A DNA stretch of 44,340 bases from positions 1 to 44,340 of the forward strand of contig REDL01000032.1 in NCBI GenBank assembly GCA_007693505.1. The letters are read 5' to 3'. The notes below the pieces were generated by a model, which was not told the origin of the DNA, ran no database searches, and worked only from the letters and a program-made list of their open reading frames with translations. The position numbers and the translations under genes were made by a program. The DNA is from Desulfovibrionales bacterium (lineage in GTDB: Bacteria > Desulfobacterota > Desulfovibrionia > Desulfovibrionales > Desulfonatronaceae). Numbering within the stretch: the first letter of the stretch is position 1; each line of letters begins with the position of its first letter. Positions 32,981 to 43,728 of the stretch are shown one piece after another.

Positions 32981-35818
32981 ATGGAATGCTTCATGGGTCG
33001 TAACTATCGCCACGAGTGGTTGCTGCTGGGAGCAACATTGCTGGTCCTGGGTGGCTTATTCACGGCTTTTCTTTCCAGAGAGTTCCGTCTGATGAACACG
33101 CAGGAACAGGAACGACTGGAACTGCAGACAAACACCCTTCAGGAAACAATGCAACATCATTTTGTCTCCATAGACCGGGCCCTCTCAAGCCTCATCACTG
33201 TTGTGGTCAATCCGCAACGGCCCGCGGACGACTTTGATCTCGCCGGGATGCTGATGACCGCCTTTGCCGAGGCCATGCCGGTGGCGCACTCATTGATCGT
33301 CACCGATGCAGATGGCCTGGTCCGGGCCGCCAGCCATTCCGAGATGGTCGGGGCCATAATCCATGACCACCCATCGTTCCAGTCCCAATGGTCCGCTCCG
33401 GACCATACCGGCCTTTTTATTCAGGCTACTTCCGTGGTTGCCCGGGAAATCTGGACGGTTCAAGCCGTTCGGATCATTCCGGGCAGAGATGGAGAATTTA
33501 TCGGTATCGTTGCCTTGGCGCTCGACCCAGCCTACCTCCATTCCCTGCTCAACGCGGTGCGTACCGCCTCCGGCATGCATGCCGCATTCATGCATGGGGA
33601 ATCAGGGTGGGGTCTTTCCACAATAGAGCAAAGCGGGTTCCTGGAAGCGGCTCCCCTGGAAACCCTTTGGCACATTTTTCCGGGAGGGGAGGCCGGAGTT
33701 ATCAGCGCTTCGCACGAGATCCAGCCGGATTCGTTGAACATCACCAGTCCGTTACAGGTCCTGGTGGCCAGGGAAAAAGCCGAGGCGCAAGCCCTTTGGA
33801 AAAGACGGCGTGACCATTTAGCTGGTCTGTTCGTACTGCTTGCGGTTCTGCCTATTCCGGTCTTGTACGTCAACCAGCGGCGACGAATGGCTGTCGAGAA
33901 CCAGGTGAAAGCCTCGGAGCAGGCTCTGGTGGAGAAAAATCTGGAATTGGAGCGCTTCTTTACGTTGTCTTTGGACATGCTCTGCATTGCCGACATCCAG
34001 GGGCGATTCACCCGGTTGAATCCGGAGTGGGAGGCCGTGCTGGGTGTTCCGCTGGCAGATATCGAAGGCCGAAAATACCTGGATTTCGTTCATCCGGATG
34101 ATGTCGAACACACCAACATTGCCGGCTCGAGGTTGCAAGCCGGAGAAGACCTGCATTTTTTTGAAAACAGATTACGCTGTGCGGACGGGGAGTATCGCTG
34201 GATCGAATGGCGTTCCAAGTCCCATGGAGAAAAAATCTATGCTGCGGCTCGGGATGTAACGGATCGCAAGCGCACTGAGGAGGCGTTGATCCGGGCCGAG
34301 ACACGCTACCGCAGCATTTTTGAACGAGCCGTGACCGGTATTGCGTTTGCCGACGAGCATTGCAATATTCTTACCCACAATGAAAGCTTCCAAAGCTTGA
34401 TCGGGTATTCGTCGGATGAATTGATCGGCATGCATTTCAGCCAGTTTACCCATCCTGACGACTCCCCAAGGGAACTCCAGTTTTATCAGCAGATGGTCGC
34501 TGGAGAACGGAATGACTATCGGTTGGAAAAGCGCTACATCACCAAGTCCGGGCAGGTCCTCTGGGTGGATCTCTCCGTTGCTGCGGTTCGGGACGAGCAG
34601 GGGCGCATGAGTAACATCGTGGGCCTGGTTGTGGATATTTCCGAGCGGAAACAGGTGGAACGAGAACTGCTACAGGCCAAGGAGGCGGCCGAATCCGCAT
34701 CCAGGGCAAAAAGCGATTTTCTGGCGAACATGAGCCATGAAATCCGTACTCCGCTGAATGCCGTGATTGGCTTGACCCAGCTCTGTCTGGAATATGACCT
34801 GGAACCCCGGCTGCGAGACTATCTGCAGAAGGTCCTGCGTTCTTCCAGAATGCTCTTGGCTATCCTCAACGAGATTTTGGACTACTCTCGGATCGAATCC
34901 GGGCGATTGCTCCTGGAACAGCGATTTTTTCCTCTTGCCTCGGTGATTGACCAGTTGGCAACACTTCTGGAGGTGCAGGTCAGGGAAAAAGGACTTAAGC
35001 TCTCCTTGCATGTCGAGCCGGATGTTCCCTGTTTCATTGAAGGAGATTCCCTGCGTCTGGAGCAGTCCCTGAGTAACCTGCTCGGCAATGCCGTGAAGTT
35101 TACCGAACAAGGCAGGGTGGAACTGCACGTCAGTGTGCAGCATCAGGATGCGGAACGGGTGCAGTTGCGGTTTGTCGTCACTGATACGGGCATCGGAATC
35201 AACCCGGAAATCCGGGACCATTTGTTCACCATGTTTACCCAGGCCGACACGTCCACGACCCGGAAGTTCGGCGGTACCGGCCTCGGATTGGCCATCAGTA
35301 GGCGTTTGGCGGAAATGATGGGAGGGGGCCTGGATTTCGAGAGCATTCCGGGTCAGGGGAGCACCTTCATTTTTACCGCGAACTTCCGCTATCAGTACGA
35401 GCCGAAACCGGTCCAACTTCCTGAATTACCATCAGCTTTGGCTGAGGCGAGCGGGGCTTCCTCATCCGGACAGCACACAACAGAAAAAGATGACCCTTAT
35501 TCCGAAACTCTCCCAATGAGGACGGCTCTTCAAGAGCAGGAGGGCCGCGATGCGCATTCTTCACGGTCGATACGCAGTTTGGATTTGCAGGCCATACAGA
35601 TCGTCCTGGACGAAATGATTCATTTGGTAGAGGGTGGGGATCTGGTGGCTGAAGAGGTCCTCAAACGCCTGGAGCAGGCGTTTGAGGACCGAGAGCCGTC
35701 ATTCGTCGCGGAGGTGCGTCGTAACCTGGATCGTTTTGATTATGAGGCTGCTTCCACATTGCTGAAGGCAAAACGAGCCGTGGTGTCGCCCTTCCCCCAC
35801 AAAAAACGAGGAGTGTAG
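32981..35818 (+). CDS. Membrane PAS sensor histidine kinase
   Basis: A 945-residue kinase. Transmembrane segment 1 spans about residues 12-31, a periplasmic sensor region of some 245 residues follows (Cache-like by size and placement), and segment 2 spans about 280-298 (LAGLFVLLAVLPIPVLYV). Two PAS domains (about 325-440 and 450-565) include FFTLSLDMLCIADIQGRF and FERAVTGIAFADEH. H586 lies in NMSHEIRTPLNAV. The ATPase domain has LLGNAVKFTEQG, VTDTGIGI and GGTGLGLAISRRL. There is no receiver domain; the last 110 residues are a helical tail (FDYEAASTLL) like those ending some hybrid kinases. The start is ATG 32981 or 32993. The receiver-GGDEF gene begins 3 bp after the stop, so it is the likely phosphotransfer partner. 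Confidence 0.92.
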   Translation: MECFMGRNYRHEWLLLGATLLVLGGLFTAFLSREFRLMNTQEQERLELQTNTLQETMQHHFVSIDRALSSLITVVVNPQRPADDFDLAGMLMTAFAEAMPVAHSLIVTDADGLVRAASHSEMVGAIIHDHPSFQSQWSAPDHTGLFIQATSVVAREIWTVQAVRIIPGRDGEFIGIVALALDPAYLHSLLNAVRTASGMHAAFMHGESGWGLSTIEQSGFLEAAPLETLWHIFPGGEAGVISASHEIQPDSLNITSPLQVLVAREKAEAQALWKRRRDHLAGLFVLLAVLPIPVLYVNQRRRMAVENQVKASEQALVEKNLELERFFTLSLDMLCIADIQGRFTRLNPEWEAVLGVPLADIEGRKYLDFVHPDDVEHTNIAGSRLQAGEDLHFFENRLRCADGEYRWIEWRSKSHGEKIYAAARDVTDRKRTEEALIRAETRYRSIFERAVTGIAFADEHCNILTHNESFQSLIGYSSDELIGMHFSQFTHPDDSPRELQFYQQMVAGERNDYRLEKRYITKSGQVLWVDLSVAAVRDEQGRMSNIVGLVVDISERKQVERELLQAKEAAESASRAKSDFLANMSHEIRTPLNAVIGLTQLCLEYDLEPRLRDYLQKVLRSSRMLLAILNEILDYSRIESGRLLLEQRFFPLASVIDQLATLLEVQVREKGLKLSLHVEPDVPCFIEGDSLRLEQSLSNLLGNAVKFTEQGRVELHVSVQHQDAERVQLRFVVTDTGIGINPEIRDHLFTMFTQADTSTTRKFGGTGLGLAISRRLAEMMGGGLDFESIPGQGSTFIFTANFRYQYEPKPVQLPELPSALAEASGASSSGQHTTEKDDPYSETLPMRTALQEQEGRDAHSSRSIRSLDLQAIQIVLDEMIHLVEGGDLVAEEVLKRLEQAFEDREPSFVAEVRRNLDRFDYEAASTLLKAKRAVVSPFPHKKRGV

Positions 35819-35821
35819 GGG

Positions 35822-36748
35822 ATGTCTGAAATGAGAGCATCCAAGTCCGTATTGATCGTGGATGATGTTCCCGTCAATATCCAGGTTCTGGCCGAAGCCT
35901 TGCGTGTGGATTACCGGGTACGGATCGCAGCCAGCGGCGCTAAGGCGCTGGCCATTGCCGCGTCCGATGACCCACCGGATATTATTCTACTGGATGTGAT
36001 GATGCCGGAGATGGACGGCTATGAGGTTTGTCGCCTGCTGAAAAATGATCCGGTAACCAAGGAAATACCCGTCATCTTCATCACGGCCAAAACCGATAGC
36101 GAGGATGAGGCCCGGGGCTTGAATCTCGGGGCCGTGGACTATATTGCCAAGCCGTTCAGTATCCCGGTGGTCAAAGCCAGAGTGCGCACCCATGTTGACT
36201 TGAAGGTTCGAACGGAGCTGCTTGAGCAGCTGGCCATGCTGGACGGATTAACGGGAATCGCCAATCGGCGCAGTTTCGAGCAAAGTTTGGAGCAGGAATG
36301 GAAACGTGCATCCCGCAATGCTCTGCCCATCAGTGTCGTGATGATTGATATCGATTATTTCAAACCCTACAATGATCATTACGGACATGGCGCTGGAGAC
36401 GTCTGTCTGCAGCAGGTGGCTGCGGCCCTGCGCTCGGAAATCCATCGGCCCATGGACGTCGTGACCCGTTTCGGTGGCGAAGAATTCGCGGCGTTGCTCC
36501 CGGAAACGGATGCAGACGGCGCGCTGGTCATTGCCAGGGCGTTTTGCAGGGCTGTAGCGAATCTGAACCTTCCGCACGGTTACTCCCTCACGGCGGATCA
36601 TGTGACCGTTTCTGTTGGTCATGCCACTACCATTGCTTTGCCGGACAAATCTTCCAGGGAGCTGGTGAACGCCGCGGATAAGGCACTCTACGAAGCCAAA
36701 AATAGTGGTCGCAACCGAATTTATCCTGAAGCTGGCCAGCTTCATTGA
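35822..36748 (+). CDS. Receiver-GGDEF diguanylate cyclase
   Basis: A response regulator that makes cyclic di-GMP when phosphorylated. 308 residues. The receiver (about 8-125) has VDDVPVN, phosphoacceptor aspartate in IILLDVMMPEMDG and lysine in YIAKPFS. The GGDEF domain (about 140-300) has LDGLTGIANRRSF, VVMIDIDYFKPYNDHYGH and the active-site loop RFGGEEF. An RPMD sequence exactly five residues before GGEEF is a canonical RxxD product-inhibition site. All catalytic residues are intact, so an active, feedback-inhibited cyclase is expected. It follows the membrane kinase by 3 bp with CGAGGAG upstream, so it is very probably cotranscribed and paired with it. The efflux genes start 71 bp later. 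Confidence 0.95.
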   Translation: MSEMRASKSVLIVDDVPVNIQVLAEALRVDYRVRIAASGAKALAIAASDDPPDIILLDVMMPEMDGYEVCRLLKNDPVTKEIPVIFITAKTDSEDEARGLNLGAVDYIAKPFSIPVVKARVRTHVDLKVRTELLEQLAMLDGLTGIANRRSFEQSLEQEWKRASRNALPISVVMIDIDYFKPYNDHYGHGAGDVCLQQVAAALRSEIHRPMDVVTRFGGEEFAALLPETDADGALVIARAFCRAVANLNLPHGYSLTADHVTVSVGHATTIALPDKSSRELVNAADKALYEAKNSGRNRIYPEAGQLH

Positions 36749-36819
36749 GACCTCCTTCACCATCAACATGCATCGAGTCCGGTGCGAACTGTTTTTTGCA
36801 TCACATCCATCACCAACAT

Positions 36820-39273
36820 ATGACAGTACATTATCGCCTGTCCCTCAGGCTGCTTGTTTCTTTGCTCTGTTTTGGTTTCCTGTTTTTCTCCGGCATCATC
36901 ATGGAGAAAATCGCTGCATCGGAAGCTGCGCCGGGAACTGCTTCGGTGGCCGGTCCCGACGCCTCTCCCGAAACCGTGCGTATCGCCGTGGTTCACGATG
37001 GCGCTTCATGGTTTCACGATGAGTTGTTGGTACTGGTCCAGGCGGAACTGGATGCGCTATTGGCAGGTCGGGAGATACGCTGGATTGAACAGCCGGAGTT
37101 GAACGCGGAGTTGGATGCTGACCGCCTTGCCTCACATTTGCAATTGGCCCTGGATGAGCCGAAAACCGACCTTGTCCTTGCATTGGGCACTCTGGCCACG
37201 ATTTTGGCAGCCAGGGAGTCGACCATCCTCACAAAACCAGTGGTCGGCGGACTGATCCCCGAAGCAACTATTCTGGACCTGCCCATTGATGCCAGTGGCG
37301 CTTCTACCCAAACGAACCTGACCTTTGTGGCCAACCCACGGCGGATCAAGGACGATATCCAGGCGTTTCATCGACTGACTGCGTTCAGCCATCTGCACGT
37401 CCTGGTGGATCGACAATTGCTTCAAGGCCTGCCGCGTATTGACGTGTTGGCGCAAAGGATGGCTGGCCAGTTGCCTGGCCATCCGGACCTGCGCGTCAGC
37501 ATCCTGCCCATGGACGGTCAGGCCGCGCCAGTTCTGGACGGACTTCCGGAAAACATCCAGGCTGTCTATCTGACACCGGCTCTGCGCATGTCAGAGTCAG
37601 AGAGGGATGTTCTTCTCCAAGGATTGATTGCCCGAAAAGTCCCTACCTTTTCCCTGATTGGACGCTCGGAGGTAGAGCGTGGCGTACTGGCCGGCCTGGC
37701 TCCCGGTGACATGGGCCGCATTGCCCGGCGAATCGCCCTGAACATCCAGCAAGTGTTGCTGGGTCAGGATGCTGGAAGTCTCCAGGTTCTGCTCCAGGAA
37801 GAAGATGCCTTGGTTGTCAATGCCCGCACCGCGGAACAAATTGGTTTTTCGCCGACATTCACGGCCTGGATCGAGGCCACTTGGCTGGATCGCCCCAGCC
37901 TGGAGGATGCACCGCCTTTGACATTGGATCAGGCCATGCGCCTGGCCCTGGAACACAACGCAGGTCTGGACGCCGAACGTTTCCGCCGGGACGCGGCGCG
38001 GCGCGACCATGACCTGGCCGGTTCCCGGTTGCTGCCCCAGGCCGTGGGGCAGGTCCAGTATCAGCGCCTGGACGCGGATCGGGCCCAGGCATCCCTGGGC
38101 CTTTTTCCGCGAGAACGGACCACGGCCGGAATCGTACTGCGCCAGATGATCTTCGACGATGCCCTGATCAGCGCCTGGAGAGCAACGGATCACCTGTCGC
38201 GTTCCCAAAGCCGGGAGCTGGAGTCCGTGCGCCTGGACGTGCTGGCCGAAGCCGGGCAACGCTATCTGCAACTGCTCTCGGCCCAGGCAATGCTGCGCAT
38301 TGACCGGGAAGTCCTCCAACTGACCCAGACCCACCGCCAAATGGCCCGAACCCGGCATCAGATCGGCGTCTCCGGACCTGAGGACGTGTATCGCTGGGAA
38401 TCCGAGACAGCGCAACGCAAGAGCGCCGTGTTCGCGGCCCAGACCCGGGTGGAGCAGTCCCGTTTCGCTCTGAACCAGACCCTGGGCATGGACCAGGACC
38501 AGCAATGGGCTGTGCAGGACATTCTCCTTGGCGACGATGAGTTCGCCTTCCTGGACAAGCAATTGAACGGATTGCTGCGCACCGTGGCTGACTGGGAACG
38601 ACTTCGACCTTTTTTTGTCGAACTGGCCCTGGACCTCTCCCCGGAGATCAAGGCCCTGGAGGAAGTGGCCACGGCCCAGAAAATCGATCGGGACCGCCTG
38701 CGTCGCCGGTTTACCACCCCGAGCCTGCACGCCCAATTCAGCTATGATCGTGAACTGGCCGCTGACCGTCCCGGAGCCGGCCCCCTGCCGTTTTCCCTTC
38801 CAGAAGCCGACCGCAACGAATGGGCCGTGGGCTTGGCCCTGAGCATGCCCCTGTTTGAGGGGGGAGGGCGGTTTCATGAATTGCGCCAGGCCGAGGACCA
38901 GCTGCAGGGCTTGGCGCGGACAAGGAACCAGGCCGAGCAAATGGTTGCCCAGCGGGTCAGAGCCGCCCTCGTTGCCATGCAGAGTTCACACCCAAACATC
39001 CGCCTGACTCGGGAAGCGGCCCGGCTGTCCAGGGAATCCCTCCGCGTGGTTCAGGACAAATACGCCCGGGGCGTAGCCACCATTCTCGATCTTTTGGACG
39101 CCCAGAATCAGGTGGCCGTGCAGGATCAGGCCGCGGCCCTGGCTGTTTACAGGTACCTTGGCGACCTCTTGGAATGTCAGCGGGCTTTAGCTTGGTTTGA
39201 GGTGGATAAAACGGATGCGGAGAAGCAGACATTTCTGGACGCGATGCAGATGCATCTCATGATGGGAAACTGA
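36820..39273 (+). CDS. Fusion of ABC substrate-binding-like domain with TolC-family outer membrane factor
   Basis: An 817-residue exported protein. The N-terminal hydrophobic stretch (residues 9-27) is a signal peptide. Residues about 45-345 resemble the ABC_sub_bind periplasmic family: DLVLALGTLATILAARES, KPVVGGLIPEA, then PENIQAVYLTPALRM and RKVPTFSLIGRSEVERGVLAGL. Residues about 375-810 are a TolC-type efflux domain with the usual two repeats (LTLDQAMRLALEHN; WAVGLALSMPLFEGGG; YARGVATILDLLDAQNQ). Normal TolC proteins have only the second part. It would form the outer-membrane channel for the RND pump encoded downstream, with an extra periplasmic ligand-binding module. The start is taken as ATG 36820; ORF extension to 36745 is open but unlikely. 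The join is in one uninterrupted frame. Confidence 0.85.
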   Translation: MTVHYRLSLRLLVSLLCFGFLFFSGIIMEKIAASEAAPGTASVAGPDASPETVRIAVVHDGASWFHDELLVLVQAELDALLAGREIRWIEQPELNAELDADRLASHLQLALDEPKTDLVLALGTLATILAARESTILTKPVVGGLIPEATILDLPIDASGASTQTNLTFVANPRRIKDDIQAFHRLTAFSHLHVLVDRQLLQGLPRIDVLAQRMAGQLPGHPDLRVSILPMDGQAAPVLDGLPENIQAVYLTPALRMSESERDVLLQGLIARKVPTFSLIGRSEVERGVLAGLAPGDMGRIARRIALNIQQVLLGQDAGSLQVLLQEEDALVVNARTAEQIGFSPTFTAWIEATWLDRPSLEDAPPLTLDQAMRLALEHNAGLDAERFRRDAARRDHDLAGSRLLPQAVGQVQYQRLDADRAQASLGLFPRERTTAGIVLRQMIFDDALISAWRATDHLSRSQSRELESVRLDVLAEAGQRYLQLLSAQAMLRIDREVLQLTQTHRQMARTRHQIGVSGPEDVYRWESETAQRKSAVFAAQTRVEQSRFALNQTLGMDQDQQWAVQDILLGDDEFAFLDKQLNGLLRTVADWERLRPFFVELALDLSPEIKALEEVATAQKIDRDRLRRRFTTPSLHAQFSYDRELAADRPGAGPLPFSLPEADRNEWAVGLALSMPLFEGGGRFHELRQAEDQLQGLARTRNQAEQMVAQRVRAALVAMQSSHPNIRLTREAARLSRESLRVVQDKYARGVATILDLLDAQNQVAVQDQAAALAVYRYLGDLLECQRALAWFEVDKTDAEKQTFLDAMQMHLMMGN

Positions 39274-39313
39274 GGAAACGGGCCGTGAAAAAAGCTTTGG
39301 CAAATTGCCTTGC

Positions 39314-39340
39314 AAAAGGCGATCGGCTTGTCGCCCTTTT
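39314..39340 (+). terminator. Possible weak terminator after the TolC fusion
   Basis: AAAAGGCGA (39314-39322) pairs, with one bulge, to TCGCCCTTTT (39331-39340), leaving an 8-nt loop and a T-rich 3' side. It lies in the 133-bp gap before the adaptor gene, so it may reduce rather than stop transcription into the pump genes. Confidence 0.4.
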
Positions 39341-39406
39341 CTGTTTCTGTTGGCTATGTTGCAGAAGAGGGCGTCTCACACTGAATGCATTACGGAGCAG
39401 TTCGTC

Positions 39407-40504
39407 GTGATATTTCATCGACTTGTTTTTGTTCTGTGCGCCGCATTTCTGGCAGTCGGCTGTGCTGAGCCTGACCAGCCATACGTCCCGGGACCTCGGC
39501 CAGTGAAAACCGTTACCGTGGAAGCGCCCCGTGACCATGTTGCGCGCAGTTTTTCCGGCATTGCCCAGGCTGCCAGGGACACGGTGCTCAGCTTCCGGAT
39601 TGCCGGTGTGCTTCAGGAACTCTCCGTGCAGGTGGGAGACCGGGTTCAGGCCGGAGGACTGATCGCTGAACTGGACTCGCGGGATGTTGAACTCAAGGTT
39701 CTGGAATTGGAAGCCCTGACCGCCCAGGCTCAGGCGGCCTTCAACCAGGCCCGGGCCGATTATGAGCGTGTCCGGGGGTTGTACGAGGTAGGCAGCGTGA
39801 GCAAAAGCGATCTGGATCAGGCCCAGGCCGGTTTTGAAACGACCCGGGCCCAACTGGCCGCGGTGAGCAAAAACCTGGCCCAGGCTCGGCTGAACCGCTC
39901 CTTCACCAGGCTTGTTGCACCCACGACCGGAAGCATTTCCCAGGTGCCGGTGGAAAATTTTCAGACCCTGCAGGCTGGACAGCCTGTTGCCGTGCTCAGC
40001 ACGGATGAAGAACTGGAATTCGAGGCAGGCATTCCAGACCGCCTGATTCACCAGCTTCGGATTGGGGATCCGGCTGAGGTGGTCTTTGACGTGCTCCCGG
40101 ACAAGGCCTTTTCCGCGGTCGTCAGCGAGGTGGCCATTACCACCGGTCCGCTCAGCGCTTTTCCGGTCACATTGCGTTTAGAGAAACCCACCCAGCGCAT
40201 TCGTCCCGGAATGATCGGCTCGGTCCGATTCAACCTGCCCCACAATGCGAACACTGATTCTTTGGAACCCTTCACCGTGATTCCGTCGGAGGCGGTTTTC
40301 GGACTGTCCACCGGGGAACAAATGGTCTGGCTTGTTGATCCGGACTCCAAGACCGTTCATCGCCGACAGGTCACAGTGGGCCGCTTGGTCCCCGAAGGAT
40401 TGCAAATCCTGGACGGTCTTGCCGGTGGGGAAATCCTGGTGACCCGCGGGGTGCATCGCTTGGAGGAAGACCAGGAGGTCCGCATCCTCGAGAATGGATC
40501 CTGA
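39407..40504 (+). CDS. RND efflux periplasmic adaptor (membrane fusion) lipoprotein
   Basis: Links an RND pump to an outer-membrane channel. About 365 residues. The N-terminus is a lipoprotein signal ending in the lipobox AVGC, so the mature protein begins at that cysteine and is lipid anchored. Features in order: barrel-sandwich half-motif TVLSFRIAGVLQELSVQVGD, a helical hairpin of Ala/Gln-rich sequence (AQAQAAFNQARADYERVRGL), the second half FTRLVAPTTGSISQVPVE, then beta-barrel and membrane-proximal domains. The start is taken as GTG 39407, with GGAG upstream, because it gives a proper signal peptide; ATG 39356 would place 17 extra residues in front of it. The RND pump gene follows after 128 bp containing tandem repeats. 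Confidence 0.92.
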   Translation: MIFHRLVFVLCAAFLAVGCAEPDQPYVPGPRPVKTVTVEAPRDHVARSFSGIAQAARDTVLSFRIAGVLQELSVQVGDRVQAGGLIAELDSRDVELKVLELEALTAQAQAAFNQARADYERVRGLYEVGSVSKSDLDQAQAGFETTRAQLAAVSKNLAQARLNRSFTRLVAPTTGSISQVPVENFQTLQAGQPVAVLSTDEELEFEAGIPDRLIHQLRIGDPAEVVFDVLPDKAFSAVVSEVAITTGPLSAFPVTLRLEKPTQRIRPGMIGSVRFNLPHNANTDSLEPFTVIPSEAVFGLSTGEQMVWLVDPDSKTVHRRQVTVGRLVPEGLQILDGLAGGEILVTRGVHRLEEDQEVRILENGS

Positions 40505-40521: not shown

Positions 40522-40573
40522 ATTGGCGCCTGTACCTGACGTACGCACATGACGCACGTACCTGGCGTCTGTA
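40522..40573 (+). repeat. Four tandem imperfect 13-bp repeats
   Basis: Units at 40522, 40535, 40548 and 40561: ATTGGCGCCTGTA, CCTGACGTACGCA, CATGACGCACGTA, CCTGGCGTCTGTA. T3, G4, C6, G7, G11 and A13 are invariant. They fill the gap between adaptor and pump genes, ending 59 bp before the pump start. A GTACG/CGTAC inverted pair lies inside. No function is known. Confidence 0.6.
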
Positions 40574-40632
40574 TCTCGTCTCCAGGAATCCTGCATAGCT
40601 CTCCACCTTTTGCCTTTTGCACCCGACGCCCC

Positions 40633-43600
40633 ATGAATCTTGCTGCCTTTTGCATCCAGAACAACCGCACGTCCCTGGTTATCCTTGTCCTGCTGGCCTT
40701 TCTCGGCGTAACCACCTACCTGAACATCCCCCGCCTGGAGGATCCGGAATTCACCGTGCGCACAGCCCTGGTGATCACCTCCTTTCCTGGGGCATCGCCG
40801 CAGCGTGTGGAGGAGCTGGTCACCGACAAGCTGGAGGAACGCATCCGGGAGATCGCCGAGGTGGACTACATCACCTCACAATCCATGTCCGGGGTGTCCA
40901 TCATTCAGGTGAACATCCAGCAACGATTCAAGGATCTGGATCCGATCTGGCAGAATCTGCGCAACAAGGTGACTGATGCCGCGCCGAATCTGCCGGAAGG
41001 GGTCCTTCCGCCCCTGGTCAATGATGAATTTGGTGATGTTTTCGGCATCCTGATTGCCCTGACCGGTGACGGGTTTACTTACCGGGAGCTGAAGGACAAG
41101 GCGGAAATTGTTCGGGATCAGTTTTTGCTCCTGGAAGACGTGGCCAAGGTGGACATCTACGGCATTCAGGAAGAACGTATTTTCGTGGAATTCTCCAATG
41201 CCAGGCTTGCCGAATTCGGTTTCAGTCCGGCTCAAGTAGTCCAGCTGCTGCACGCCCAGAATGCCATCCAGCCCAGCGGCGTGGCCCTGGTCGGCTCGGA
41301 GCGGGTTGTCATTGAGCCCACCGGGGAATTCACTTCCCTGGACAACCTGGCTTCCACCACCTTTCGCCTGCCGGGCCGGGCTGAAAGCATTGCCTTGCGG
41401 GATTTCGCCACCATCACCCGCGACTACCAGGACCCTCCAGGGCCCATGGCCCGGTTTGACGGCGAGCGGGCCATGATTCTGGCCGTGAGCATGGCCCAGG
41501 GCGGCAAGATCACGGACCTGGGAGACCGGGTTGAAGAGCGCCTGGAGTCGTTGCGGGCCGGCCTGCCCATCGGCCTGGACCTGGACATCCTGCTTTTTCA
41601 ACCCGACTTCGTGCGGACGGCCATTGACGATTTCATGATCAATCTGGCGTTGGCCTTTGTCTTTGTTGTCGGGGCCATGTTCGTGTTCACGGGGTTGCGG
41701 ACCGGCATCGTGGCCGGACTGGTCATCCCCATGTCCATCCTGACCTGTATCGCCTTGATGCCCTTGTTCGGCGTGGATCTGCAGCGGGTGTCCATTGCCT
41801 CGTTCATCATCGCGTTGGGCCTGCTGGTGGCCAACGGCGTGGTGGTTAGTGAAAATATTCTGGTGCGCCTGAATCGGGGGGAGGACCGCCTGGGCGCGGC
41901 CACCCAGGCGGTACGGGAGCTCTGGTTTCCGCTGCTGACCGCATCCCTGACCACCATCTTTGCCTTCATGCCCATTCCCATGGCCCAGTCCGAGACCGGG
42001 GAATACACCATGTCCTTGTTCATCGTGGTCAGCCTGACGTTGCTGCTGTCCTGGATCTTTTCCCTGACCATGGTCCCCCTGCTCAGCTTCTACTTTCAAA
42101 GGCCGCGCAAAGCGGAACAGCAAAAAGGAAACGACCCGTTTCCCGGTTTCTGGTACCGAAAATTCCGAGGGATGTTGCTCTTCTGTCTCCAACGTCAGCT
42201 CGCCTTTGTGGTTTTTGCCCTGCTGCTGACCATTGGCGGAGCCGCGGCATTCCGCCTGGTGCCGACCATGTTTTTTCCACCCAATGACCGGGAAATGTTC
42301 ACCATTGAATTCTGGCAGCCCTTTGGTACGGATATCCAGGTGACAGCCGAACGGCTGCATGAACTGGAGGAACACCTGCTCCGTCAGGAAGGGGTGCTCT
42401 CCCTGGGAGCATTTATCGGCTCGGGCGGGCCGCGCTGGTATCTCTCCCTGAACCCGGAACAGAATAATCCCAATTATGCGTTTGTGATCGTGAATACCCG
42501 GTCCCTGGATGACGTCACCCCCCTGATCCAGACTGCCAGGGCCTTTCTGGACGATCGGTTTCCGGACACCCGGCATACGGTGCGTCGTCTGGAGCTGGGC
42601 CCCCCTGTCGGCGCACCGGTCCAGATCCGCATCGCCGGCCCGGATATCGATGACCTGTATCGTCTTCGCGACGCCGCCATCCAGGCCATTGCTCCCATTG
42701 ACGGGATCAGTTCCATTCATGACGACTGGGGGGAGTGGACCAAGAAGATGGTCGTGGATGTCAACCAGGAACAGGCCAAGCGCATTGGTTTGTCCACCCA
42801 GGACATCGCCCTGTCCCTGCAGACGCAAATTTCCGGTCTTACCGCCACCCAGTTCCGGGAAGGCGACAACCTGGTGCCGGTGGTGGTGCGGGCCCAGGAG
42901 AGCTTTCGCAAGGATCTGGGCAATATCGAAGGATTGAACGTTTATGGTTTTCACAATGGGCATAGTGTGCCCCTGCTGCAGGTGGCCACTACCCGTTTGA
43001 CCTGGCAGCCCAGTGATATCCGGCGCAGGGATCAGACCCGGACCATGACCGTGAAGGTGGAAATTTCCGGACGCTATGCCGCGGATGTGCTCGACGAAGT
43101 CCAGGCGGCGATGATGGACGTGCAGCGCTCGGATACATGGCTGGAAGCATATTCCGTGGAATACGGCGGTGAGGTGGAGGAAAGCGCCAAGGCCAACGCC
43201 TCGGTCATGGCCGGTGTGCCCCTGGCCATGGGGCTGCTGGCCCTGGTGCTTATTGTCCAATTCAACTCCATCCGGCGCTTCCTGATCATCCTGCTGACCA
43301 TCCCGCCGATGATGGTCGGCATCAGCGCCGGACTGCTGCTTACCAGGGAACCTTTTGGATTCATGGCCATGCTGGGCATGATCAGTCTCGTGGGCATCAT
43401 CGTGAACAACGCCATTTTAATTCTGGATCGGATGGAAATTGAGCGATCCGAGGGCAAATCCGAGCAGGAACTGGTGGTCAATGCCGTACAGGAACGGCTT
43501 CGGGCCATTTTCCTGACCGCGGCCACCACGATCATGGGTCTGGTCCCCTTGGCCTTGCTGGGCGGTGACATGTGGCGACCCATGGCCAATGTCTTGATTT

Positions 43601-43728
43601 TCGGCCTTTCCTTTTCCTCCCTGTTCACCCTGATCCTTTGTCCGGTGCTCTATGCCATGTTTTTCCGAATCCGCTTTCCGCGGGAAACTGAGGAAAACGC
43701 AACTGCACATCACGGCAATGGGGCATGA
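40633..43728 (+). CDS. RND efflux pump, inner-membrane permease (AcrB/HAE-like)
   Basis: A proton-driven trimeric exporter, 1031 residues, full length. The N-terminal transmembrane helix is SLVILVLLAFLGVTTYL, followed by porter sequences (DPEFTVRTALVITSFPGASP, VEELVTDKLEERI), helices 2-6 from about residue 335 (INLALAFVFVVGAMFVFTGL), a second porter region, and helices 8-12 near the end (MAMLGMISLVGIIVNNAILIL, ATTIMGLVPLALLGG). The intramembrane relay region has GLLVANGVVVSENI, where classical HAE1 pumps have a DD pair; this looks closer to the divergent pumps that lack it. The substrate is unknown. The start ATG 40633 fits the family N-terminus; an upstream in-frame ATG at 40549 lies inside the tandem repeats and is rejected. 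It follows the adaptor gene and completes a tripartite pump. Confidence 0.94.
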   Translation: MNLAAFCIQNNRTSLVILVLLAFLGVTTYLNIPRLEDPEFTVRTALVITSFPGASPQRVEELVTDKLEERIREIAEVDYITSQSMSGVSIIQVNIQQRFKDLDPIWQNLRNKVTDAAPNLPEGVLPPLVNDEFGDVFGILIALTGDGFTYRELKDKAEIVRDQFLLLEDVAKVDIYGIQEERIFVEFSNARLAEFGFSPAQVVQLLHAQNAIQPSGVALVGSERVVIEPTGEFTSLDNLASTTFRLPGRAESIALRDFATITRDYQDPPGPMARFDGERAMILAVSMAQGGKITDLGDRVEERLESLRAGLPIGLDLDILLFQPDFVRTAIDDFMINLALAFVFVVGAMFVFTGLRTGIVAGLVIPMSILTCIALMPLFGVDLQRVSIASFIIALGLLVANGVVVSENILVRLNRGEDRLGAATQAVRELWFPLLTASLTTIFAFMPIPMAQSETGEYTMSLFIVVSLTLLLSWIFSLTMVPLLSFYFQRPRKAEQQKGNDPFPGFWYRKFRGMLLFCLQRQLAFVVFALLLTIGGAAAFRLVPTMFFPPNDREMFTIEFWQPFGTDIQVTAERLHELEEHLLRQEGVLSLGAFIGSGGPRWYLSLNPEQNNPNYAFVIVNTRSLDDVTPLIQTARAFLDDRFPDTRHTVRRLELGPPVGAPVQIRIAGPDIDDLYRLRDAAIQAIAPIDGISSIHDDWGEWTKKMVVDVNQEQAKRIGLSTQDIALSLQTQISGLTATQFREGDNLVPVVVRAQESFRKDLGNIEGLNVYGFHNGHSVPLLQVATTRLTWQPSDIRRRDQTRTMTVKVEISGRYAADVLDEVQAAMMDVQRSDTWLEAYSVEYGGEVEESAKANASVMAGVPLAMGLLALVLIVQFNSIRRFLIILLTIPPMMVGISAGLLLTREPFGFMAMLGMISLVGIIVNNAILILDRMEIERSEGKSEQELVVNAVQERLRAIFLTAATTIMGLVPLALLGGDMWRPMANVLIFGLSFSSLFTLILCPVLYAMFFRIRFPRETEENATAHHGNGA

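Follow-up and report, generated by a model that had tools for sequence, protein, structure and literature searches.

The outer-membrane factor encoded at positions 36820-39273 (+ strand) of the analysed DNA carries a solute-binding protein-like domain in front of a complete TolC-type channel. This DNA, a 44,340-nucleotide stretch from a Desulfovibrionales bacterium (contig REDL01000032.1) that we call the window, also encodes an adaptor and an RND permease, and the fused protein is the dedicated outer-membrane exit duct of this MexK-type RND tripartite pump. Outer-membrane factors are commonly regarded as passive ducts that are shared, and to our knowledge the TolC, OpmH and OprM-type factors known so far carry no such domain. 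The fused channel is a recurrent and apparently undescribed variant of outer-membrane factor that occurs in at least two phyla. A clade that keeps a binding-protein domain across this range, and that accompanies RND as well as ABC exporters, points to exit ducts that in some cases bear a sensor or assembly module of their own, a reading that is open to test with purified proteins.

A binding-protein domain and a TolC-type channel in one reading frame

The open frame spans positions 36745-39273 (+), and from the ATG at 36820 it yields a single frame of 817 residues that holds no internal stop codons. The first ~36 residues (1-36; 36820-36927, + strand) resemble a signal peptide when read by eye, with a basic start, a hydrophobic core and the motif AAS-EA. 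An ABC_sub_bind-like domain of the type I periplasmic-binding kind follows (residues 52-353; 36973-37878, + strand), and a short linker (37879-37914, + strand) leads to the complete TolC/OEP half (residues 366-800; 37915-39219, + strand). In the alignment, this linker amounts to about 13 residues between A353, the last conserved residue of the domain, and L367, where conservation resumes in the OEP half.

The identity of the channel half is evident from standard searches. It matches the Pfam OEP family (PF02321) in two stretches with an E-value of 1.2e-41 and 143 bits, far above the cut-off of 22, and the protein thus belongs to this family with both of its repeats. A sequence search of the PDB aligns TolC structures to residues 380-792 (E ~1e-11); the channel would have their homotrimeric beta-barrel/alpha-barrel fold. 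The more specialized NCBIfam model type_I_sec_TolC scores 131 bits, under its cut-off of 225.

The N-terminal half is more divergent. Searched alone against Pfam ABC_sub_bind (PF04392), one of the profiles used in PMC9602780 to collect solute-binding proteins, it scores 15 bits (E 0.015) and does not reach the gathering cut-off of 25.9; the family is not listed by Pfam when the whole 817-residue protein is scanned. Because of this score, the relationship was tested by phmmer, by profiles and by hhalign. The N-terminal half finds structure 3lkv by phmmer (E 0.0019), and a profile of eight fused proteins, window included, finds 3lkv and 3lft with E-values of 1.1e-5 and 0.011. When the fused domains were compared by hhalign with seven stand-alone proteins from the same order, three of which are 94-98% alike, the match reached 99.5% (E 3e-23) over 294 columns. 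All seven pass the ABC_sub_bind cut-off, which was reached by 10 of 10 stand-alone proteins scanned. The homology thus extends over the whole domain, which, as judged from these comparisons, is derived from an ABC_sub_bind solute-binding protein.

A fused relative encoded on a Sulfuricurvum kujiense plasmid provides an additional link, since its domain reaches the ABC_sub_bind cut-off (38.6 bits) and also aligns to positions 2-315 of the 319 in the fused-domain profile (E 1.6e-50). In three scans, the fused relatives passing this cut-off numbered 0/7 (best score 20.5), 1/10 (Sulfuricurvum; next 24.8) and 0/4 (one a repeat). Most therefore score under the Pfam cut-off, like the window protein, and automatic annotation will usually miss the domain. 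AlphaFold models made from a 3-sequence alignment are of low confidence, with pLDDT values of 46.9 for the domain alone and 38.2 for the full-length protein, and too poor to read the pocket from. In a Foldseek search with the former model (best E 2.1e-4, TM 0.25), most of the best rows were type I periplasmic-binding or LacI-type folds, joined by isopropylmalate and isocitrate dehydrogenases; coming from such a model, this lends the fold weak support.

A preliminary description of this DNA, prepared from the letters alone, had read the gene as a single frame with a signal peptide, an ABC_sub_bind-like half and a complete TolC half, and the frame, Pfam, PDB and profile evidence confirms that reading. 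Its concern that the N-terminal half might match no periplasmic binding fold is answered by the 3lkv, 3lft and hhalign matches, and searching the residues of the two halves separately, as it had proposed, places the OEP half well above the Pfam cut-off and assigns the other half to the periplasmic-binding family by profiles.

Two genes follow downstream, as that description had also stated, and both lie on the same strand. An RND periplasmic adaptor of the HlyD/MFP type (39305-40504, + strand) matches the RND_mfp model TIGR01730 with 239.9 bits against a cut-off of 94.9, as well as HlyD_3 and HlyD_D23. By eye it carries a lipobox-like AVGC, and its true start is probably inside this frame. The MexK-like RND permease (40549-43728, + strand; start more likely at 40633) matches ACR_tran with an E-value of 7.7e-155. 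Among solved structures, a PDB sequence search places it closest to MexK (9xwg, E 1.4e-193) and then to 6vej (E 9.8e-182), which we take to be TriC. Thus, adaptor and permease are encoded together with an outer-membrane factor, as expected for an RND tripartite pump.

Upstream and collinear, Pfam matches identify a histidine kinase with PAS domains (32981-35818, + strand) and a diguanylate cyclase-type response regulator-GGDEF protein (35822-36748, + strand). The genes scanned between 31778 and 43728 comprise these two, a Gate-domain protein, the fused channel, the adaptor and the RND permease, and no ABC importer permease or ATPase gene was found among them. The kinase and response regulator-GGDEF pair (32981-36748) lies directly upstream, in the same order, in congener G002 and in no other locus of the neighbourhood survey. 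Genomes G100 and G101 carry a divergent NtrC-type response regulator in its place, and two Cetobacterium loci have two-component genes close by.

Recurrence and ancestry of the fused channel

We gathered 33 fused proteins, and the N-terminal domain is clear in 31 of them (E 2.7e-33 or better against the domain profile, which was built from eight of the 31). These 31 comprise the window protein, 27 other loci of its phylum, two Syntrophobacteraceae MAGs and Sulfuricurvum. Within the window's order, the domain matches with at least 230 bits in 6 of 348 genomes, four of which contributed to the profile, and always in frames of at least 812 residues; the next match scores 78 bits and lies in a 428-residue frame. 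Some weaker matches in the order sit in frames of 560-715 residues, and the TolC half is absent from the two of these that were tested (L044, L054). In a sample of the phylum, 26 places in 24 of 395 genomes (the window's own included) score at least 109 bits, with the next at 85. Among these genes, those of G646 and G672 are cut by contig ends and the copy on G528 contig 4 is broken.

Domain identity to the window protein is ~77-78% for G002, 50-51% for the two MAGs and 31-32% for G012 and G009, and the domain profile search of the order recovered the same single frame in G100 and G101 as well. This distribution bears on whether two neighbouring genes were simply joined by a sequencing or assembly error, the possibility that the preliminary description had named as fatal to its reading. 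Pfam alone, which leaves the window N-domain under its cut-off, might invite such an explanation. Set against it is the same frame in G002, G012, G009, the two MAGs, G100, G101 and 23 phylum-sample genomes besides the window's (two of them contig-cut). Recurrence in independent genomes rules this explanation out for practical purposes, and we regard it as vanishingly improbable. Domain and channel were seen as separate neighbouring genes in one case only. This is G528 contig 4, with a TAG and a TAA inside the domain frame, and as read here it would be a decayed copy.

Searches of contigs found no relative with the window's N-domain as a single query; the profile found two, both in the Syntrophobacteraceae MAGs. 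On these contigs (L063, L064) the RND protein is 78-79% and the TolC half 64-66% identical to those of the window. They are closer to the window than are G009, G012, G100 and G101 of its own order. This likeness likely stems from transfer of the gene cluster in its entirety, or else from a wrong MAG label.

Relatives encoded on plasmids were found in Sulfuricurvum kujiense (Campylobacterota) and Cetobacterium somerae (Fusobacteriota; four records, two looked at). The N-domain is doubtful in the two Cetobacterium proteins (726 and 723 residues), which score E-values of 0.0029, over 57 positions, and 0.85 against the domain profile, although a Sulfuricurvum query aligns from a point inside its own domain onward. 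The annotations conceal the fusion, in that the Sulfuricurvum record is named 'ABC transporter substrate binding protein' and the Cetobacterium records 'TolC family protein'. The fused channel of G009 (L067:8479-11961) is 1160 residues long, with ~330 extra residues before the binding domain. N-terminal extensions of L111, L101, L107 and L108 are not claimed as domains, since such very long frames probably start in upstream or overlapping sequence.

Among the open-licence PMC papers that our searches listed, we found no description of this architecture. None of the terms 'N-terminal domain', 'substrate-binding', 'additional domain' and 'domain architecture' occurs in a study that collected TolC-like proteins (PMC8809574). 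The architecture may well be catalogued already in domain databases.

The channel halves form a group of their own. A tree of TolC halves with 62 rows (61 different), comprising 33 fused proteins and 29 other outer-membrane factors, places the two sets on opposite sides of a midpoint root, used for drawing only, with 100/100 support on both separating branches. Some fused rows are long branches, and the other channels were chosen by similarity, mostly from 41 genomes, so that the comparison is with these channels rather than with unfused relatives from other phyla. One row that is not labelled as fused, the broken second copy of G528, falls inside the fused clade, so that two changes of the fused/unfused label, and not one, are required along the tree. 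In this copy (L118:7797-10049), one of two in the genome, the domain lies upstream in the same frame and is interrupted by the TAG and TAA, whereas the channel half reads through.

At an E-value of 1e-50, a profile of 21 TolC halves (20 fused proteins and one Cetobacterium row), which favours fused rows because it is made of them, finds 27 places in 25 of 390 genomes. Frames of at least 726 residues account for 23 of these places. The other four comprise the broken G528 copy, an intact channel in G686 that lacks the domain, and genes of G646 and G387 truncated at contig ends. Based on this survey, the fusion appears to be old and to have been retained in most members, although one or more are without it. 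The G686 channel (L223:8221-9999) belongs to the fused clade; its contig, which extends 0.5 kb past the channel, showed no adaptor or RND gene.

Partner pumps and the optional exit duct

Adaptor and RND genes lie near the fused channel on the same strand in 27 of the 33 loci (24 surveyed loci, two Cetobacterium loci and the window), in the order channel-adaptor-pump or adaptor-pump-channel. Of the other loci, L103, L106, L119 and L120 lie at most 0.6 kb from a contig end on one side, and for L107 no adaptor or pump gene was found within flanks of 4.4 and 7.9 kb. The Sulfuricurvum plasmid locus (L126:7899-15155) has no RND pairing; there the channel is accompanied by an ABC permease and an RbbA-type ABC ATPase, together with an adaptor of HlyD type. 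A TetR-type regulator gene lies on each side of that locus.

RND proteins close to that of the window are much more widespread in the order than the fused channel. With two candidates scored per genome, an RND match of at least 1116 bits (at least 50% identity) occurs in 59 of 345 genomes, with the next match at 769 bits, and all six fused-channel genomes of the order are among the 59. Congeners G006 and G004 encode RND proteins 84% and 83% identical to that of the window, each with an adaptor and neither with an adjoining channel gene; a search of both genomes with the domain gave nothing beyond a weak match in a frame of stand-alone size. Both have an AI-2E-type transporter and a homoserine dehydrogenase as neighbours, joined in G006 by CobD and an ABC ATPase and in G004 by a VTT-domain protein. 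Similarly, 13 of 16 RND neighbourhoods that lack the fused channel contain adaptor and RND genes and no TolC-type frame within 12-16 kb, as assessed with a single query and with the 21-half profile. One of the 13 (L164) has a contig that begins 0.35 kb beyond the RND gene, and two loci beyond the 13 (L131, L165) are cut by contig ends. The same profile finds a plain 460-residue channel (E 1.5e-39) beside the more distant, 769-bit RND protein of L170. These 13 neighbourhoods rule out a strict dependence of this RND type on the fused channel. Because the two congeners keep such similar RND proteins and the adaptor without an adjoining channel, we regard the fused channel as an optional, dedicated exit duct.

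The preliminary description had linked the architecture to adaptor and RND genes, which holds for these 27 loci, and had suggested that the domain may load or gate the channel by sensing a small molecule, which is plausible. Very similar RND proteins occur without an adjoining channel, and the Sulfuricurvum fused channel accompanies an ABC exporter, so that the domain is not bound to substrate capture by RND pumps. As a loader, the domain might catch the efflux substrate in the periplasm and pass it to the pump or the duct. Solute-binding proteins do hand cargo to transporters; metal efflux adaptors can bear a fused chaperone domain (PMC4446572). CusF and the CusF-like domain of SilB, on which this reading is modelled, handle metal ions. 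The tether of about 13 residues argues against such loading, because it keeps the domain at the channel N-terminus, presumably far from the inner-membrane RND entry sites. The pairing with an ABC exporter and the existence of a close RND ortholog without the fused channel speak against it as well. We therefore consider substrate loading improbable, and regulation or recruitment of the channel more likely than direct delivery of cargo.

Conservation and possible roles of the N-terminal domain

The domain evolves under constraint, although faster than the channel. Identity between the proteins of the window and G002 is 78% in the domain, compared with 95% in the TolC half. For this one pair, NG86 gives dN 0.122 and dS 0.369 for the domain versus 0.024 and 0.223 for the TolC half; dN/dS is ~0.33 versus 0.11 by NG86 and ~0.40 versus 0.14 by YN00. 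The domain is thus under purifying selection between these two genomes. Across the 31 proteins, domain identity is lower than channel identity in 419 of 465 pairs (means of 30% and 37%), and the two halves diverge jointly (r 0.85). Among 25 operons, the distance correlation of the domain is 0.877 with the channel, 0.804 with the adaptor and 0.693 with the RND protein.

Residues D117, G123, P140, A248, G288, G315, N334 and A338 are conserved in fused and stand-alone domains alike, and the retention of D117, G123, P140, N334 and A338 in particular indicates that the fold is kept. Other charged positions distinguish the fused class: R303 is present in 31 of 31 fused proteins versus 20% of 55 stand-alone rows, R304 in 87% of 31 versus 7% of 55, K139 in 90% of 31 versus 4% of 54, and D60 in 97% of 30 versus 0 of 13. 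The choice of positions was post hoc; moreover, the profile had been built from eight of the fused rows, and the stand-alone set comes from genomes of the same phylum, some perhaps represented more than once. D60, K139, R303 and R304 may mark a new contact rather than a pocket.

Such a contact would suit a structural or assembly role, which is the main rival to ligand sensing. In this case, ligand binding would have been lost and the domain would position or stabilize the trimer, or act as a brace between it and the adaptor, peptidoglycan or outer membrane. Besides the charged residues typical of fused domains only, the pairing with pumps of either RND or ABC type suggests that the domain follows the channel and not the cargo. 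The extra N-terminal stretch of the G009 protein has an AMIN-like Pfam match that would fit a brace, although it is weak (E 0.0015, under the cut-off) and seen in one member only. A precedent for decoration exists in E. coli, where, according to PMC13082787, the lipoprotein YbjP binds the surface of TolC in the zone from the equatorial domain up to the outer membrane. However, a type I binding fold would be an elaborate choice for a brace, and its fold residues are kept. We consider this role quite possible, if short of an even chance.

The reading that we develop here is ligand sensing. Each channel protomer would carry one N-terminal periplasmic domain, giving three per trimer on short tethers. 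In TolC homologues the lipids at the N-terminus are located in the outer membrane (PMC13082787), which suggests that the three domains would be placed in the periplasm outside the channel, near its equatorial region. A small ligand could then open or close the bilobed domain, with the effect that the channel engages the adaptor or opens more or less readily, and the exit duct would thereby be used when the ligand is present.

Support for ligand sensing comes from the homology of the domain, its conserved fold residues, purifying selection, the single clade, co-divergence with the channel, the linkage to adaptor and RND genes and the short linker. It is weakened by the faster evolution of the domain relative to the channel and by the rarity of D60, K139, R303 and R304 in stand-alone proteins, as well as by the congeners' pumps without a channel, the G686 channel without a domain and the broken domain of G528. 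On balance, we tentatively place the chance that ligand-driven closure alters recruitment or opening of the channel not far below even. The fuller proposal of a ligand-gated exit duct, in which a small periplasmic molecule on the domain would control both adaptor engagement and channel opening at the outer-membrane end, is rather unlikely on present sequence evidence, and control of export at this end is a mode that we do not know of for TolC-type channels. Functions outside the sensing, bracing and loading readings hold the remaining probability.

Known systems share parts of this arrangement. TolC, OpmH and OprM-type factors have the same two OEP repeats and are encoded with adaptor and RND genes, whereas here a binding-protein domain of ~300 residues precedes the channel. 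ABC_sub_bind proteins (PF04392; 3lft, 3lkv), which presumably include TrpX, are homologous in sequence to the fused domain along its whole length; the fused version differs in being joined to a channel, in its class-specific charged residues and in lacking adjacent ABC importer genes. MexJK of Pseudomonas borrows its outer-membrane factor. The RND protein of the window resembles MexK and 6vej most among solved structures, which points to MexJK and to TriABC-OpmH of Pseudomonas (the latter named in PMC4446572), yet the window cluster encodes its own outer-membrane factor, and this factor bears the extra domain.

Two further systems parallel the domain itself. The CusF-like domain of the SilB adaptor is likewise a periplasmic ligand-binding domain fused to a component of a tripartite efflux system, but it has another fold, its partner is an adaptor and not a channel, and its ligands are metal ions (PMC4446572). 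YbjP of E. coli, as described in PMC13082787, resembles the proposed arrangement in being a periplasmic protein on the outside of TolC, whereas it is a separate lipoprotein of another family and not a fusion.
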